Shown here in pieces: positions 11,447 to 17,231 of a DNA stretch of 64,000 nt (within the stretch, counting starts at the first letter, position 1; each line of letters starts with the position of its first letter). This stretch comes from Eriocheir sinensis (Eukaryota > Arthropoda > Malacostraca > Decapoda > Varunidae): contig NC_066513.1 in assembly GCF_024679095.1 (NCBI RefSeq), positions 8,836,942 through 8,900,941 of the forward strand. The letters run 5' to 3'. The position numbers and the translations under genes are program-made. Under the pieces are notes generated by a model. That model was given only the letters and a program-made list of their open reading frames with translations, did no database searches and had not been told where the DNA came from.

Positions 11447-11450
11447 CGAG
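11447..11450. repeat. Target duplication CGAG, left copy
   Basis: CGAG here matches CGAG at 16863-16866 across the LTR composite. Removing the insertion and one copy restores an open frame across the LINE (PRGLDRGDGRRPDG), which supports the boundaries. Confidence 0.85.
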
Positions 11451-11695
11451 TTTAATGACGAGATTTTCTATTCTCTTTTTTCTATTACTCTCTCCAGGTC
11501 CCACACGTCCTTCTGCGTGTATCGAAACACACGAGAAATTAATCACAACAAGGAGAGGGTATTCCCCGGCTGCCTGGGATTGAACCCGCGACCAGCGTGA
11601 CGGGAGAGCCACTCCTTACCGAGTCGGCCAAAGAGGTACCCCACTGGCTAAGTGGGTTATGGGAGGCTCGTTCATCAGGCCGTCGCCGCACTACA
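11451..11695 (-). repeat. Outer 3' LTR (LTR1a) with tRNA-like module
   Basis: In element sense it starts TGTAGTGCGG and ends CATTAAA. A polypurine tract (TAGGGGGGAAAGC, plus strand 11697-11710 complement) precedes it. Inside, in element sense, lie TGGCCGACTCGG (A-box-like) and, about 40 bases later, GGTTCAATCCC (B-box-like), the two halves of a Pol III internal promoter as in tRNA genes. Confidence 0.85.
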
Positions 11696-11894
11696 CAGCT
11701 TTCCCCCCTATGTAGATTAATTTCTGTGTGTTGACAATGTCCCTTTGAGACATAACTCCACAATGTCCCTTTGAGACATACCTCCAATATTTACATTTTC
11801 TATCAACCTCGGAGAGCATGGGCCATCCTACCTGTTACCCCTTCGGGGAAACTCAACAGAACCGCAGGATAGGATGCCCACCGCTATGCCACCA
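11696..11894 (-). mobile_element. Short LTR internal region, unit 1
   Basis: In element sense: primer site TGGTGGCATAGCGGTGGG, about 180 bases without an ORF, then the polypurine tract and LTR1a. It holds two copies of a TATGTCTCAAAGGGACATTG motif. This primer-site / tiny internal / polypurine-tract layout between LTRs is that of a TRIM-type miniature retrotransposon. Confidence 0.75.
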
Positions 11895-12145
11895 GTTTAA
11901 TGACGAGATTTTCTATTCTCTTTTTTCTATTACTCTCTCCAGGTCCCACACGTCCTTCTGCGTGTATCGAAACACACGAGAAATTAATCACAACAAGGAG
12001 AGGGTATTTATTCCCCGGCTGCCTGGGATTGAACCCGCGACCAGCGTGACGGGAGAGCCACTCCTTACCGAGTCGGCCAAAGAGGTACCCCACTGGCTAA
12101 GTGGGTTATGGGAGGCTCGTTCATCAGGCCGTCGCCGCACTACAC
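11895..12145 (-). repeat. LTR1b, shared middle LTR
   Basis: Same LTR as LTR1a with a 4-base insertion (TTTA) after GGGTA. It serves as 5' LTR of unit 1 and 3' LTR of unit 2, the tandem sharing expected from LTR-LTR recombination. Confidence 0.85.
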
Positions 12146-12356
12146 GGCTTTCCCCCCTATGTAGATTAATTTCTGTGTGTTGAGACCTTTAGACAGTGAC
12201 CCATTTCGGTGCACAATTTCACAATGTCCCCGTAGAGACATACCTCCAACTCTCCCATTTTCTATTATCCTCGGAGAGCATGGGCCATCCTACCTGTTAC
12301 CCCTTCGGGGAAACTCAACAGAACCGCAAGATAGGATGCCCACCGCTATGCCACCA
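12146..12356 (-). mobile_element. Short LTR internal region, unit 2
   Basis: Element sense: TGGTGGCATAGCGGTGGG primer-like site (12338-12356 complement), GC-rich hairpin-forming sequence, a GTCTCTACGGGGACATTGTG motif and a polypurine tract beside LTR1b. Its inverted counterpart is 15112-15322. Confidence 0.75.
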
Positions 12357-12530
12357 GTGAAATGCCTGAATTTTTTCTCTTTTCTACACTCCCACACGAC
12401 CACCGCGTGTAACGAAACACACGAGAAATTAATCCAGACAAGGAAAGGTTTGCCGGCGCAGGGGATCGAACCCGCGACCAGCGTAACGGGAGAGCCACTC
12501 CTTTACCAGTCGGCCAAAGAGGTACCCCTG
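12357..12530 (-). repeat. LTR2, left arm
   Basis: A diverged relative of LTR1, ending GGCATTTCAC in element sense and retaining TGGCCGACTGG and GGTTCGATCCC box-like sequences. It is truncated at pol and is the inverted partner of 14952-15111. Confidence 0.75.
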
Positions 12531-15039
12531 GGGATGGCAAAAAGCATAATAGCGGAGATGCTACAAGACATGGAAGACAGACAAATCATAGAAAAGTCGA
12601 CATCCGCTTGGCTTTCACCCATAGTGTTGGTCAATAAACCGGACGGGAGTAAAAGAATGTGTTTGGATTACCGTCACGTGAATAAACATCTCGCCACAGA
12701 TATTCATCCTTTACCGAGGTTAGAGGAGCTAGTAGACCAAGCAGCTAGTCATAATTTCTATGCAACCCTGGACATGCGCGAAGCTTACTTTCAAATCCTC
12801 CTGGATGAGGATAGCAGAGACCTTACAGCCTTTAGTGATGGGGTAACCTTATATAGATTCAGGAGACTTCCTTTTGGACTCAGTTGCTCCCCAGCCATAT
12901 TCACACGTCATATGGCTGTTCTTCTATCACCATTGTTAAAAGAGGGTTGGATTAAGAATTACTTGGACGACCTCATAATTTGGGCCCCCGATTTTTCTTC
13001 ACTTACTCAAAGACTGAGAAAGACCTTCACTGTACTTAAGGAAAATGGTATTAAACTAAATCTGAGCAAATGTGAAATAGCTAAAAATGAAGTTACTTTC
13101 CTTGGTTATAGAATATCTATAGAGGGCAGTCAGCCAGACCCAAAGAATGTAGAAGCAGTTCTTGAAATGAAACCACCAACTAAAGTAAAAGAAGTTAGGA
13201 GATTCTTGGGTATGACAGGGTTTTACAGAAAACATATCCCTAACTATGCAAAGATTGCCACGCCCCTAACTAATCTCACCAGAAAAACCCAACCTTTTAA
13301 ATGGACTGAACAGTGTCAAACTGCTTTTGAAACACTAAAGGAATACCTCGCTAAGGCCCCTGTTCTTGTGAGAGCCCAACCTCACCAACCATTCATTGTT
13401 ACCACCGATGCTAGCAATACCCACGTAGGAGGGGTCCTAAGTAAAGCTCAAAGTGATGGCGAGGCTAAACCTCTTGGTTATTTCTCTAAGAAATTAAACT
13501 CAACTGAAAACAGGTATTCCGCAACTGATAAAGAAGCACTAGCAGTAGTATTAGCTTGTCGCCACTTCCATCATTATTTATGGGGTACTAGATTTACCAT
13601 CCTAACTGACCACCAACCCCTCACTTGTATATTCAAGAGGAAAACAAAATCAGCTAGAATGAATCGCTGGATAATGGAAATGACAGACCAACTCTCACGA
13701 CCAGTCAGAATAGTCCAACGTTGTCCAACCACCACTATCCTAGGTCTCACTTCCGAAGAATTTATAAAATGCCAGAGAGAAGAAGTAAAGTGGAGAGAAA
13801 TGATTGAGTATCAAGGAGGAGGTTCAATCCCAACAAAGAAATATCACAAAACCATCTTGGAGCAATTCACCCTCAAAGATGGGATTCTTTACTATGTAAA
13901 GGAAGCAACTGATGGCAGTATACAATATACACTGGTAGTCCCTCATAATCTGAAACCGAAAGCTTTATCCCAAGCACAACATGTCTGGTCATCTCGGACA
14001 AAAGAAAACCATAAAGAAGGCTGAAGAATTGTTCTACTGGTGCAATCTGAAGGTTGAGGTTTCTAACTATGTAAAACAATGTGTAACTTGTCAGAGATTC
14101 AAGGGACAAGCAGGGTTACAACAACCGTTCCAAGAATTACCTTCAGTAGGAAAACCATTAGAGAGAGTAGGAATTGACCTGACTGACATGATCGCAGGAA
14201 GTCAAGGTTACAGATATGTACGTAGTGTTGTAGATCATTTCAGTAGGTATGTAAAGTTTTACCCATTAAAAACCAAACACACCCAAGGGATTATTGAGGC
14301 ACTAGCACAGTACGTGACAGACTTTGGAGCTCCACACAGCATTGTCCTTGACAACGGAGGCGAATTCACATCCCAGGCCTTCCAGCAGTTTTGTCAGCAA
14401 CACCTCATCACGCTCTACTACACGACACCTTACCATCCCCAGGGGAACGCGGTCACCGAAAGACTCCATCGCACCCTCAAAACCATCTTGGCCACACTTT
14501 GCCAAGGTCACCCTCTTCGATGGCCCAGGTTACTGCAAACGTGTCAAGCCACGATGAACGCTGCTGTTCACACCAGTACCACGCAACAACCCTACTTTGC
14601 GTTCTTTTCGAGACCTGCACCAAGGATGGTGGGTATCAGATTACCTACTATAACCGGTGAAGAGGACGATATTGACATCGCTCGCCGTGTTATTCGGGAA
14701 ACGCAGGAGAAAATGACCAGAAAATATCGCAGTGTCGCTAATCGAAAACGCAAAGAACAAAAGGTAAACCCGGGGGTATTGGTATGGATAAAACGAGTAA
14801 ATGAACCGGGAGTGTGTAAGAAACTGTGTGTCAAGTGGAACGGTCCATACCGAGTAGTGGAAGTGTTGAGAGATGGTGGAGGTTACATAGTGAAAGACCC
14901 ATTTACGGGACAAATGTTACAAAGAGCGGATGAGAAAGTGAAACCGTTCAGTGGCCGACTGGTAAAGGAGTGGCTCTCCCGTTACGCTGGTCGCGGGTTC
15001 GATCCCCGGCGCCGGCAAACCTTTCCTTGTCTGGATTAA
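12531..15039 (+). pseudogene. Gypsy pol: RT, RNase H, integrase
   Basis: Opposite in strand to the flanking gag. It starts directly inside RT (MAKSIIAEMLQDMEDRQIIE); protease is missing. RT blocks: LDYRHVNKHL, ATLDMREAYFQI (catalytic Asp), PFGLSCSPAIFTR and NYLDDLIIW (YxDD intact). RNase H: VTTDASNTHVGGVL, ATDKEALAVVLAC, TDHQPLTCIF. After EMTD the frame jumps to QLSRPVRIVQ, suggesting loss of the end of RNase H. A frameshift near 13980 separates the integrase, which keeps the HHCC-type finger (CxxC in CVTCQRFKG), the DDE residues (GIDLTDM, LDNGGEFTS, NAVTERLHRTLK) and a chromodomain-like tail (VKWNGPYRVVEVL). The last about 30 residues are read-through into LTR2 sequence. Confidence 0.88.
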
Positions 15040-15111
15040 TTTCTCGTGTGTTTCGTTACACGCGGTGGTCGTGTGGGAGTGTAGAAAAGAGAAAAAATTC
15101 AGGCATTTCAC
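14952..15111 (+). repeat. LTR2, right arm
   Basis: Inverted copy of 12357-12530, following pol in the position of a 3' LTR. Contains GTGGCCGACTGGTAAAGG and GGTTCGATCCC box-like sequences and ends GGCATTTCAC, then TGGTGGCGTAGCGGTGGG. Confidence 0.75.
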
Positions 15112-15322
15112 TGGTGGCGTAGCGGTGGGCATCCTATCCTGCGGTTCTGTTGAGTTTCCCCGAAGGGGTAACAGGTAGGATGGCCCATGCTCTCCGAGGA
15201 TAATAGAAAATGGGAGAGTTGGAGGTATGTCTCTACGGGGACATTGTGAAATTGTGCACCAAAATGGGTCACTGTCTAAAGGTCTCAACACACAGAAATT
15301 AATCTACATAGGGGGGAAAGCC
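15112..15322 (+). mobile_element. Short LTR internal region, inverted copy
   Basis: Inverted copy of 12146-12356. It begins with the primer-like site and ends with the polypurine tract ATAGGGGGGAAAG (15309-15320) directly before LTR1c. This tract is where plus-strand strong-stop DNA of LTR1c would start. Confidence 0.75.
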
Positions 15323-15564
15323 GTGTAGTGCGGCGACGGCCTGATGAACGAGCCTCCCATAACCCACTTAGCCAGTGGGGTACCTCTTTGGCCGACTCGG
15401 TAAGGAGTGGCTCTCCCGTCACGCTGGTCGCGGGTTCAATCCCAGGCAGCCGGGGAATACCCTCTCCTTGTTGTGATTATCTCGTGTTTCGATACACGCA
15501 GAAGGACGTGTGGGACCTGGAGAGAGTAATAGAAAAAAGAGAATAGAAAATCTCGTCATTAAAC
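15323..15564 (+). repeat. LTR1c, inverted relative to outer LTRs
   Basis: Same LTR in plus orientation, with small deletions near 15478-15486 relative to the others. It is preceded by a polypurine tract and followed without a gap by the 47-nt tRNA-Leu segment. Confidence 0.85.
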
Positions 15565-15611
15565 TGGTGGCAGCGGTGGGATTCGAACCCACGCCTCCGA
15601 GGAGACTGGAG
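15565..15611 (+). other. tRNA-Leu 3'-half copy (extended primer site)
   Basis: These 47 bases start TGGTGGCAGCGGTGGGATTC and are the complement of a tRNA 3' half: CCA end, acceptor strand, T arm with GGGTTCGAATCCC, variable arm and the 3' side of the anticodon stem (CTCCAG). I recognise it as metazoan tRNA-Leu (AAG/UAG type) from memory. The outer 5' LTR is followed by only 18 such bases (16599-16616), the usual primer-site length. The match stops just 3' of the position of m1G37 in tRNA-Leu. The copy is joined to the antisense of gag. Confidence 0.8.
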
Positions 15612-15986
15612 TTGTGTGGTTGCGTTGAGTCCCTGCAGTTGATGTAGTTCTAAAACAGGAATGTCGCGGGGTTTAGTTGTCGCCATTTGACGCGGGGGCG
15701 TAGGCAAGTTATCACCTAAACGTTGCAGTACTCGATTTTGTTGCGCCACTATCTGTTTAAGGCGGTCTACTTCTTGTTCCAATGTACTAAGATTATGTTC
15801 GTTCTCCTCCGATTTTACTGGACTGGATTTGAAAGGGTTAAAGTTAGTTTCATCCATTTGTTCCCCTGAACTGGCCCCCCACCTTGAGTGTATGAGTCGA
15901 TCATCCATTTTTCCACGACTGGTTGTGGTGAGGTGTAGATTACGTAAGTTTTGAGTAGAGGTTCGATCCTCATAAACCTTCGACAC
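15612..15986 (-). pseudogene. Gypsy gag, N-terminal part
   Basis: On the minus strand an open frame gives a hydrophilic N-terminus, a predicted coiled coil (VDRLKQIVAQQNRVLQRLGD) and the block RDIPVLELHQLQGLNATTQ, which resembles the start of the structural Gag domain of arthropod gypsy elements. It is cut at 15611, where it fuses to the tRNA-Leu copy; downstream capsid, nucleocapsid and protease are absent. Gag would form the particle in which reverse transcription happens. The start is uncertain: the first Met is at about 15986, a second (MDDRLIHSRWG) about 80 bases in. Confidence 0.65.
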
Positions 15987-16029
15987 AAGCGTATTCTTCA
16001 GGCCCCCACAACTTAGCGATCACTACTCC

Positions 16030-16550
16030 TCACTCAACAACCTCGTCTTCCCCAATGAATCCTTTAATTATCTTCTTAAACTTAGACTCAACTCTCATTC
16101 TGCCAGCTCCACCCAAATGCACTCCTTCACCACTTAACTCTTCCACAAAATTCACATTGTTAAAATGAATGTTAGGTGTTGTAAGTGATCTCTTGATTCT
16201 GTTATTTATCCCACATTGAATTTTCTTGTAATTTTCTGCAGGCATACCTCTAGCCTGGACTCTAGGTTCAACTTGGCAGATATACACTACAGACTGGCAG
16301 TTGGTTTCAATTTCTTGGTAAATCTCCTTGATGTCATTGAAAATTTCTAATCGGTTAGCATCAACATTTATGTCATTACTACCGATCCAAAGGATCGTTA
16401 GATCATGTTCCCATTCCAAGACTGTGTTCAGACGCTCATCTTGAAAAAAATTGCTGGCTTTGGCCCAGGGGCACGGAAAATTCTAATTTCAGTGCCTGGG
16501 AATTCAAAGTATCTAGGAATTTGACTGTGTCCCACAAAAGAAATCTTCCA
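16030..16550 (-). pseudogene. SGNH-hydrolase-like ORF upstream of gag
   Basis: Starting at an ATG near 16550 on the minus strand, the frame carries the SGNH/GDSL blocks: FVGHSQIPRYF (block I, with His in place of the usual Asp before Ser), LWIGSNDINVD (block III GxND) and GEGVHLGGAGRMRV (block V, His retained; the usual Asp before GVH is Glu-Gly). A one-base loss near 16467 breaks the frame. SGNH esterases are known in ORF1 of CR1-type LINEs and in envelope-like viral esterases; one placed between primer site and gag of a gypsy element is not something I know. The length of about 170 residues fits a compact SGNH domain. No signal peptide is seen. Confidence 0.65.
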
Positions 16551-16598
16551 CATGATTCGTGAATAATACACACTCCCGGTGAATTACAACAACTGTAA

Positions 16599-16616
16599 AT
16601 CCCACCGCTGCCACCA
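16599..16616 (-). promoter_or_regulatory. Primer binding site, tRNA-Leu
   Basis: In element sense TGGTGGCAGCGGTGGGAT follows the outer 5' LTR after one base. It is complementary to the 3' end of tRNA-Leu, including CCA, for 18 bases, and then diverges. Confidence 0.85.
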
Positions 16617-16617
16617 G

Positions 16618-16862
16618 TTTAATGACGAGATTTTCTATTCTCTTTTTTCTATTACTCTCTCCAGGTCCCACACGTCCTTCTGCGTGTATCGAAACACACG
16701 AGAAATTAATCACAACAAGGAGAGGGTATTCCCCGGCTGCCTGGGATTGAACCCGCGACCAGCGTGACGGGAGAGCCACTCCTTACCGAGTCGGCCAAAG
16801 AGGTACCCCACTGGCTAAGTGGGTTATGGGAGGCTCGTTCATCAGGCCGTCGCCGCACTACA
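16618..16862 (-). repeat. Outer 5' LTR (LTR1d)
   Basis: 245 bp, identical by eye to 11451-11695, same orientation, bordered outside by CGAG. It carries the same A-box-like and B-box-like pair. Confidence 0.9.
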
Positions 16863-17231
16863 CGAGGAGACGGACGTCGACCGGACGGCACCACAGTCTT
16901 CCCCTTCAGGCGAGGCAAGATTCTGGTGTGGGACGCCACCTGCGTCAACACATTTTCTACTACCCACACCATCAACTGCGCTTTTGCTGCGCTGCCGAAG
17001 AGCGCAAGCATCAACGCTACGCGGCCCTCGCCCAGCGCTACGATTTTGTGCCCCTTGCCGTGGAGACGAGCGGTGTGCTGGGACCTGCCTTCAGGAACCT
17101 GCTGCAGAGCATCGGCAGGCGCATCAGCCACCGCAGCGGGGAGCCTCGCGAGACAGCATGGCTGAGGCAGCGCGTCAGCATTGCCGTAGCGCGTGGTACC
17201 GCAGCGGCGATGTGTGGACCCCCGGACTTTG
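16863..17231 (+). pseudogene. R2-like LINE C-terminus, restriction-like endonuclease
   Basis: Continuation of the LINE at 9360-11446. In plus-strand frames the block RRPDGTTVFPFRRGKILVWD fits the restriction-like endonuclease signature of R2-group LINEs (RPD, about 12-14 residues, then D/E), followed in another frame by AEERKHQRYAALAQRYDF with the expected Lys-containing helix, and by ETSGVLGPAFRNLL. A shift near 16975 separates the two halves. Such a nuclease nicks the target site in site-specific LINEs. The ORF ends in a C-run (17233-17249), after which LINE similarity stops. Confidence 0.7.

Follow-up and report, generated by a model that had tools for sequence, protein, structure and literature searches.

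At the LTR-LTR junctions of retroviral circles, tRNA primer sequence is retained beyond the end of the LTR. A review of HIV-1 reverse transcription describes a minor plus-strand strong-stop product (P5), known in vitro, which ends at ms2t6A37 of tRNA-Lys,3 and which it does not count among the active templates (PMC13191261). Zebrafish tRNA-Lys reads have likewise been reported to end at position 38, which was ascribed to ms2t6A37 (PMC11417395). Another close known system is Helenus/TRIMp3 (Kojima 2024, PMC10886601), a short element whose LTRs contain tRNA-like A and B boxes (motifs TRGCY, YGG, and GGTTC) and which has a primer-binding site (PBS), a polypurine tract (PPT), a 4-bp target-site duplication (TSD) in animals, and a tRNA-Leu primer in some families. 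According to the same source, the dependence of TRIMs on autonomous elements is unknown, and their partners are inferred from sequence similarity (PMC10886601).

The structure described here shares with Helenus the A and B boxes, the short interior with PBS and PPT, and the 4-bp duplication, and may have used a tRNA-Leu primer as some Helenus families do; unlike the elements of that account (PMC10886601) it is fused to parts of a Gypsy-like element (gag, SGNH, and pol), and its counterpart at a second locus is fused to another LTR family. It would also resemble HIV-1 P5, since a plus-strand LTR copy would have passed A58 and halted at a modified tRNA position 37, while it differs from that in vitro, tRNA-Lys,3-primed product in comprising two integrated copies, in its use of tRNA-Leu, and in a proposed mispriming step (PMC13191261). 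Unlike retroviral circle junctions, internal mispriming would here have given rise to integrated inverted units, with no LTR-LTR circle. Among open-licence papers, which hold part of the literature, no published genomic copy of this structure was found.

The window is a 64,000-nt stretch of the Eriocheir sinensis genome (contig NC_066513.1), and all coordinates refer to it. The original prediction was centred on 15323-15986; it had missed that 11451-16862 is one integrated unit with the target duplication CGAG on both flanks, and that a pol fragment lies at 12529-14951 between inverted LTR copies. When the unit is removed and the flanks are rejoined with one CGAG, an open frame runs across the 299 nt tested, and on the strand of this frame the upstream ORF, which we take to be R2-like, matches RVT_1. 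The unit contains the following features, including three joins (J1, J2, and J3).

11447-11450, no strand, target-site duplication CGAG, left
11451-11695, minus strand, outer LTR, U5 side (E14), 245 nt, identical to 16618-16862
11696-11895, minus strand, short TRIM internal region X', with a primer-site-like start and a polypurine tract
11896-12144, minus strand, LTR (E12) with a 4-nt AATA insertion
12145-12357, minus strand, internal region X
12358-12528, minus strand, LTR-B, truncated at GGGGTACC (LTR position 54)
12522-12528, no strand, join J1 of antisense LTR-B to pol, at RYP codons of RT conserved in relatives
12529-14951, plus strand, pol fragment (RT, RNase H, integrase) with a frameshift and a truncated 5' end
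14952-14954, no strand, join J2 of the integrase C-terminus to LTR-B, TGG
14952-15110, plus strand, LTR-B, 5'-truncated
15111-15309, plus strand, internal region X
15310-15320, plus strand, polypurine tract, AGGGGGGAAAG
15324-15563, plus strand, LTR (E6) that has a 5-nt deletion and precedes the tRNA copy
15565-15611, plus strand, 47 nt antisense to tRNA-Leu positions 76-38, including CCA
15606-15611, no strand, join J3, CTGGAG (sense CTCCAG), common to tRNA 38-43 and gag codons LQ
15606-15908 (end about), minus strand, gag N-terminus, cut after LQ
16030-16482, minus strand, SGNH/GDSL-like ORF, Pfam match under the curated cut-off
16598-16616, minus strand, primer site, 19 nt, TGGTGGCAGCGGTGGGATT
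16618-16862, minus strand, outer LTR, U3 side (E1), 245 nt
16863-16866, no strand, target-site duplication CGAG, right

In the composite thus listed, a Helenus-type TRIM is mixed with pieces of a Gypsy-like element, namely SGNH-gag and pol. The pol fragment is 2.4 kb long, runs opposite to gag, and is flanked by inverted LTR-B-X-LTR copies; an alignment of these copies over 620 columns has 4 mismatches and 3 gap openings. The Pfam domains of the pol fragment follow in the order RVT_1, RT_RNaseH, Integrase_H2C2, and rve, and this part is likely Gypsy (Ty3-type), the order being one that excludes copia and fits BEL/Pao or retroviruses too. In addition, the pol copy lacks, at 13675-13695 (plus strand), about 17 residues found in relatives between RNase H and DQLSRP, and its integrase is in a different frame. 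At J1, TACCC is held in common with the relative L001; at J2, TGG is probably common to LTR-B and native pol.

The two outer LTRs are identical across 245 nt, which fits ordinary completion after the joins, as it fits other histories. All four full LTRs of the window carry a 2-nt (TG) insertion that occurs in none of the 50 other LTR sequences compared, all distinct though some are haplotype copies of one locus, and this private insertion points to one recent source. Beyond it, E12 has its one 4-nt insertion, and E6 has two mismatched columns beside its 5-nt deletion.

Along the plus strand, junction J3 is embedded in the order polypurine tract, LTR, a single C (between the LTR end at 15563 and the tRNA copy at 15565), tRNA copy, and then, all in antisense, gag, the SGNH-like ORF, the primer site (16598-16616), and an LTR whose last base is 16862. 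The order of LTR, 47-nt tRNA-Leu complement with CCA, and antisense gag had been noted before, and it is confirmed. The polypurine tract and the primer site were also located correctly, with small corrections to the extent of the tract (15310-15320, not 15309-15320) and the length of the site (19 nt, not 18). Joined to a 5' half which we take to be that of vertebrate tRNA-Leu(AAG), the 47 nt are called by ARAGORN as tRNA-Leu(aag) with paired stems, so that the comparison at this junction is based on that 5' half and on stem pairing. ARAGORN called no tRNA on the window itself or on the other loci scanned. In the window no Rfam family reached its gathering score; there are two sub-threshold matches in 14900-16900, of which one is to the tmRNA model and lies across the T arm and acceptor. 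The 28 nt of tRNA sequence past the 19-nt primer site are not due to chance, and A58 is copied faithfully.

The tRNA copy and gag share the hexamer CTCCAG, which is found at this one place in the retained sense sequence from LTR to gag (1257 nt). It is preceded by A in gag, as against G37 in tRNA-Leu (base 37 being presumed G, as in tRNA-Leu(AAG)), and the homology therefore ends at nucleotide 38; the switch itself may lie at any place in the hexamer. That CTCCAG is native gag coding, as had been proposed, is borne out by relatives of the gag part. A search of 5.8 billion proteins gave nine relatives at E <=0.01 among 195 candidates. Each of the ten alignment rows (the window and the nine relatives) has L and Q at the join, after which every relative (9/9) goes on as [IM]F[FLY]E and the window goes on as antisense tRNA. 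The invariant LQ and the differing continuation imply that CTCCAG belongs to gag and tRNA alike. In the DNA of L001, a distant relative, gag at this place reads CTC CAA ATG TTC TTC, with five of six bases in common with CTCCAG.

The SGNH-like ORF, placed between the primer site and gag, looks like a conserved 5' gene of the gag/pol element family. It has 19 relatives of 101-181 aa; an SGNH fragment occupies the equivalent place in L001, and the longest contig is 4409 for both an SGNH relative (P0135) and a gag relative (P0006). L001 is the one hit in the prokaryote collection; its contig is listed as part of an Aquifex MAG, where it is presumably a eukaryotic contaminant. Among viral contigs, 10 and 14 stretches matched the gag and pol patterns, respectively, and none was confirmed as a relative, and the tRNA pattern gave no match.

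The LTR of the window, with a reference length of 245 nt (TGTAG...TTAAA), belongs to a multi-copy family. It carries a tRNA-like, Pol III-like A box (TGGCCGACTCGG, LTR position 66) and B box (GGTTCAATCCC, LTR position 110); two-LTR copies of about 650-700 bp are present at many loci, with an interior of about 200 nt between the short LTRs, and interior X carries the PPT. A 4-bp duplication was found in 22 of 29 non-duplicate LTR rows (seven are without one), these being drawn from 48 after leaving out duplicates and the rows of the window and of L005/L006; the unit in the window thus agrees with the family in its LTR ends and in the length of its duplication. The primer site of the 18 non-duplicate rows with an interior is CATA-type in 15, with extra bases relative to tRNA-Leu, a near or exact tRNA-Leu match in two (L010 and L023), and another sequence in one. 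Judged by sequence, the LTR, the boxes, the short interior with PBS and PPT, and the 4-bp duplications fit the Helenus TRIM class. The predicted retroelement junction is real, with the correction that its LTR is that of a Helenus-type TRIM and not clearly that of the gag/pol element. Other family members were expected to lack the 47 nt, and none of the 29 rows, apart from the window and L005/L006, has tRNA sequence past the primer site; 40 of 1864 candidates in this LTR search were scored, and further joins with other boundaries could exist.

A second junction of LTR, long tRNA copy, and antisense sequence, of the kind that had been anticipated elsewhere in the genome, was found at L005/L006, with a different target and the same tRNA boundary. 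L005 and L006 are two contigs that carry the same join and are 99% alike across 2.5 to 4 kb, so they are counted as one event. Here 45 nt complementary to tRNA-Leu 76-40 come after a Helenus LTR, and the next 186 nt, whose end is GTTACA, are the antisense of the first part (U3) of a second LTR, LTR2. The unit is flanked by a TAGG duplication; it begins at a U3 start beside the duplication, and its other end coincides exactly with the U3 start of LTR2. When the flanks are joined, one frame gives QFWYPY*RKDLEKLERVQ and contains stops, and the host sequence is a decayed reverse-transcriptase frame, which we take to be CR1-like.

The search for native LTR2 gave 40 scored matches from 108 candidates, two of which are L005/L006 themselves. 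At the place of the join, native LTR2 reads CTCCAGTCT, or in the longer reading CATCTCCAGTCT, in 10/10 loci examined (with seven or eight distinct flanks), and CTCCAGTCTC, the tRNA-Leu sequence from position 38 on, in 9/10. The homology between LTR2 and the tRNA is CTCCAGTCT(C), ending at nucleotide 38; since the LTR2 base before CTCCAG is T, not G37, the homology again ends between 38 and 37. The L005 unit reads CTGGTG, not CTGGAG, through one substitution that lies within the homology and corresponds to position 39 of the tRNA. The divergence of its LTR is about 5%, and its tRNA copy has A changed to T at position 58. We considered this change as a mark of read-through at m1A58 and rejected it as such, a single change being explicable by background divergence; it is suggestive only and may be chance. 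For comparison, one report counted 499 reads with U and 453 with A at the place of position 58 and judged such misreading improbable (PMC2359750).

LTR2 measures 1.23 to 1.33 kb in the five of eight copies where the GTTACA-type end was found, and two of these five end-defined copies (L060 and L061) have 4-bp duplications. The possibility that the gag/pol element owns LTR2 was rejected for the eight copies compared, as all eight 9.9-kb stretches were without a match to one SGNH, one gag, and one pol relative. One of the eight stretches (L059) has downstream an ORF, a candidate part of the LTR2 element, with a match to DUF1759, a domain which we associate with BEL/Pao gag.

The best explanation for these structures, and in our judgement a probable one, is that an over-extended plus-strand copy stalled before m1G37, misprimed at CTCCAG, and was integrated. 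The template would be minus-strand Helenus-type TRIM DNA with its tRNA-Leu primer still attached, on which the plus strand would be copied through the LTR, into the tRNA, and past A58. Synthesis would halt at nucleotide 38, G37 being methylated (m1G37), and the free 3' end ...CTGGAG would anneal to CTCCAG of another plus-sense retroelement strand. Extension of the annealed end would then yield antisense sequence back to the LTR of the target element, namely from gag of a Gypsy-like element in the window, and from the U3 of LTR2 at L005/L006, where copying to the 5' end would place a U3 terminus at both ends of the product. Finally, the products would be integrated with 4-bp duplications.

What is directly seen at these loci is the anatomy, the shared hexamer, the nt-38 homology boundary at two loci, the duplications, the empty sites, and a single recent origin of the four LTRs of the window. 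LTR sequence runs into tRNA complement with CCA well beyond 18 nt (47 nt in the window and 45 nt at L005/L006), and the switch point is free within 6 shared nt in the window or 10 nt in LTR2, only the homology boundary being in common. A stall before m1G37 and subsequent mispriming are favoured because two joins, whose targets are unrelated, have the tRNA boundary in common; the boundary is known from these two events. That the L005 product ends at the LTR2 U3 start fits a plus-strand DNA template, and would explain the integration of both ends. From these observations we infer that m1G37 was the stop, that reverse transcriptase made the joins, and that the templates were plus-strand DNA; the joins of the window would have arisen in one particle, and Helenus and LTR2 may have shared a particle. 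The original reading as plus-strand strong-stop DNA is supported in its over-copying and mispriming, while a start at the polypurine tract is not seen, as X, LTR-B, and pol extend upstream of the tract on the same strand.

The same boundary at both loci is also predicted if the primer was a 3' half of tRNA-Leu cut between 37 and 38, from which the copy ran off before mispriming. We consider this unlikely, because cleavage exactly after G37 would be unusual for a ribonuclease. The primer site of the family, moreover, may fit an ordinary tRNA 3' end, although internal parts of tRNAs do prime elsewhere, as the anticodon-loop primer sites reported for most fungal Helenus indicate (PMC10886601).

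Joining at the DNA level, in which tRNA-ended retroelement DNA was attached elsewhere by microhomology-mediated end joining, gains from the short shared sequences at J1 and J2 and from a switch point that is not fixed inside the shared stretch. However, both homologies are bounded at nt 38, as priming by a stopped end predicts, and the L005 unit stops precisely where the U3 of LTR2 starts, next to a 4-bp duplication; random end joining would hardly produce two nt-38 joins that both start at the hexamer, and we regard this route as quite improbable. If instead the primer site had recombined with a chromosomal tRNA-Leu gene, with no mature tRNA copied, the event could use the roughly 15 nt that the site has in common with any matching tRNA-Leu gene, but it would have to occur twice with one nt-38 boundary, which makes it very improbable. 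An assembly artefact is just as improbable, for although inverted repeats are error-prone and the joins are known from an assembly, both units have matching duplications and empty-site frames, and two contigs 99% alike (L005 and L006) carry the same join.

If stalling before m1G37 and mispriming are correct, a dead-end product of the test tube forms in living cells and enters genomes, and the genome stores tRNA modification as a DNA record of a reverse transcriptase stop on a modified tRNA. It would also be a route by which retroelements become inverted or chimeric, and would show physically that reverse transcription of a Helenus TRIM took place together with that of a particular Gypsy-like family. 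The broader proposal, that over-extension to the modified position 37 is a recurrent in vivo source of new retroelement structures through CTGGAG mispriming, inverted units accepted by integrase, and TRIM-LTR recombination, seems to us evenly balanced.

The TRIM itself, seen at 11451-12528 and at loci L008-L046, occurs in two-LTR, three-LTR, and solo forms, and a second LTR variant, LTR-B, coexists within the window. L012 and L019 contain, near 1782, an LTR copy inside the element that starts at about LTR position 51-54 (TGGGGTACC). This start is near the truncation of LTR-B at 12528 and 12 nt upstream of the A box, and LTR position ~51-54 may, judging from these sequences, correspond to the 5' end of the TRIM RNA.
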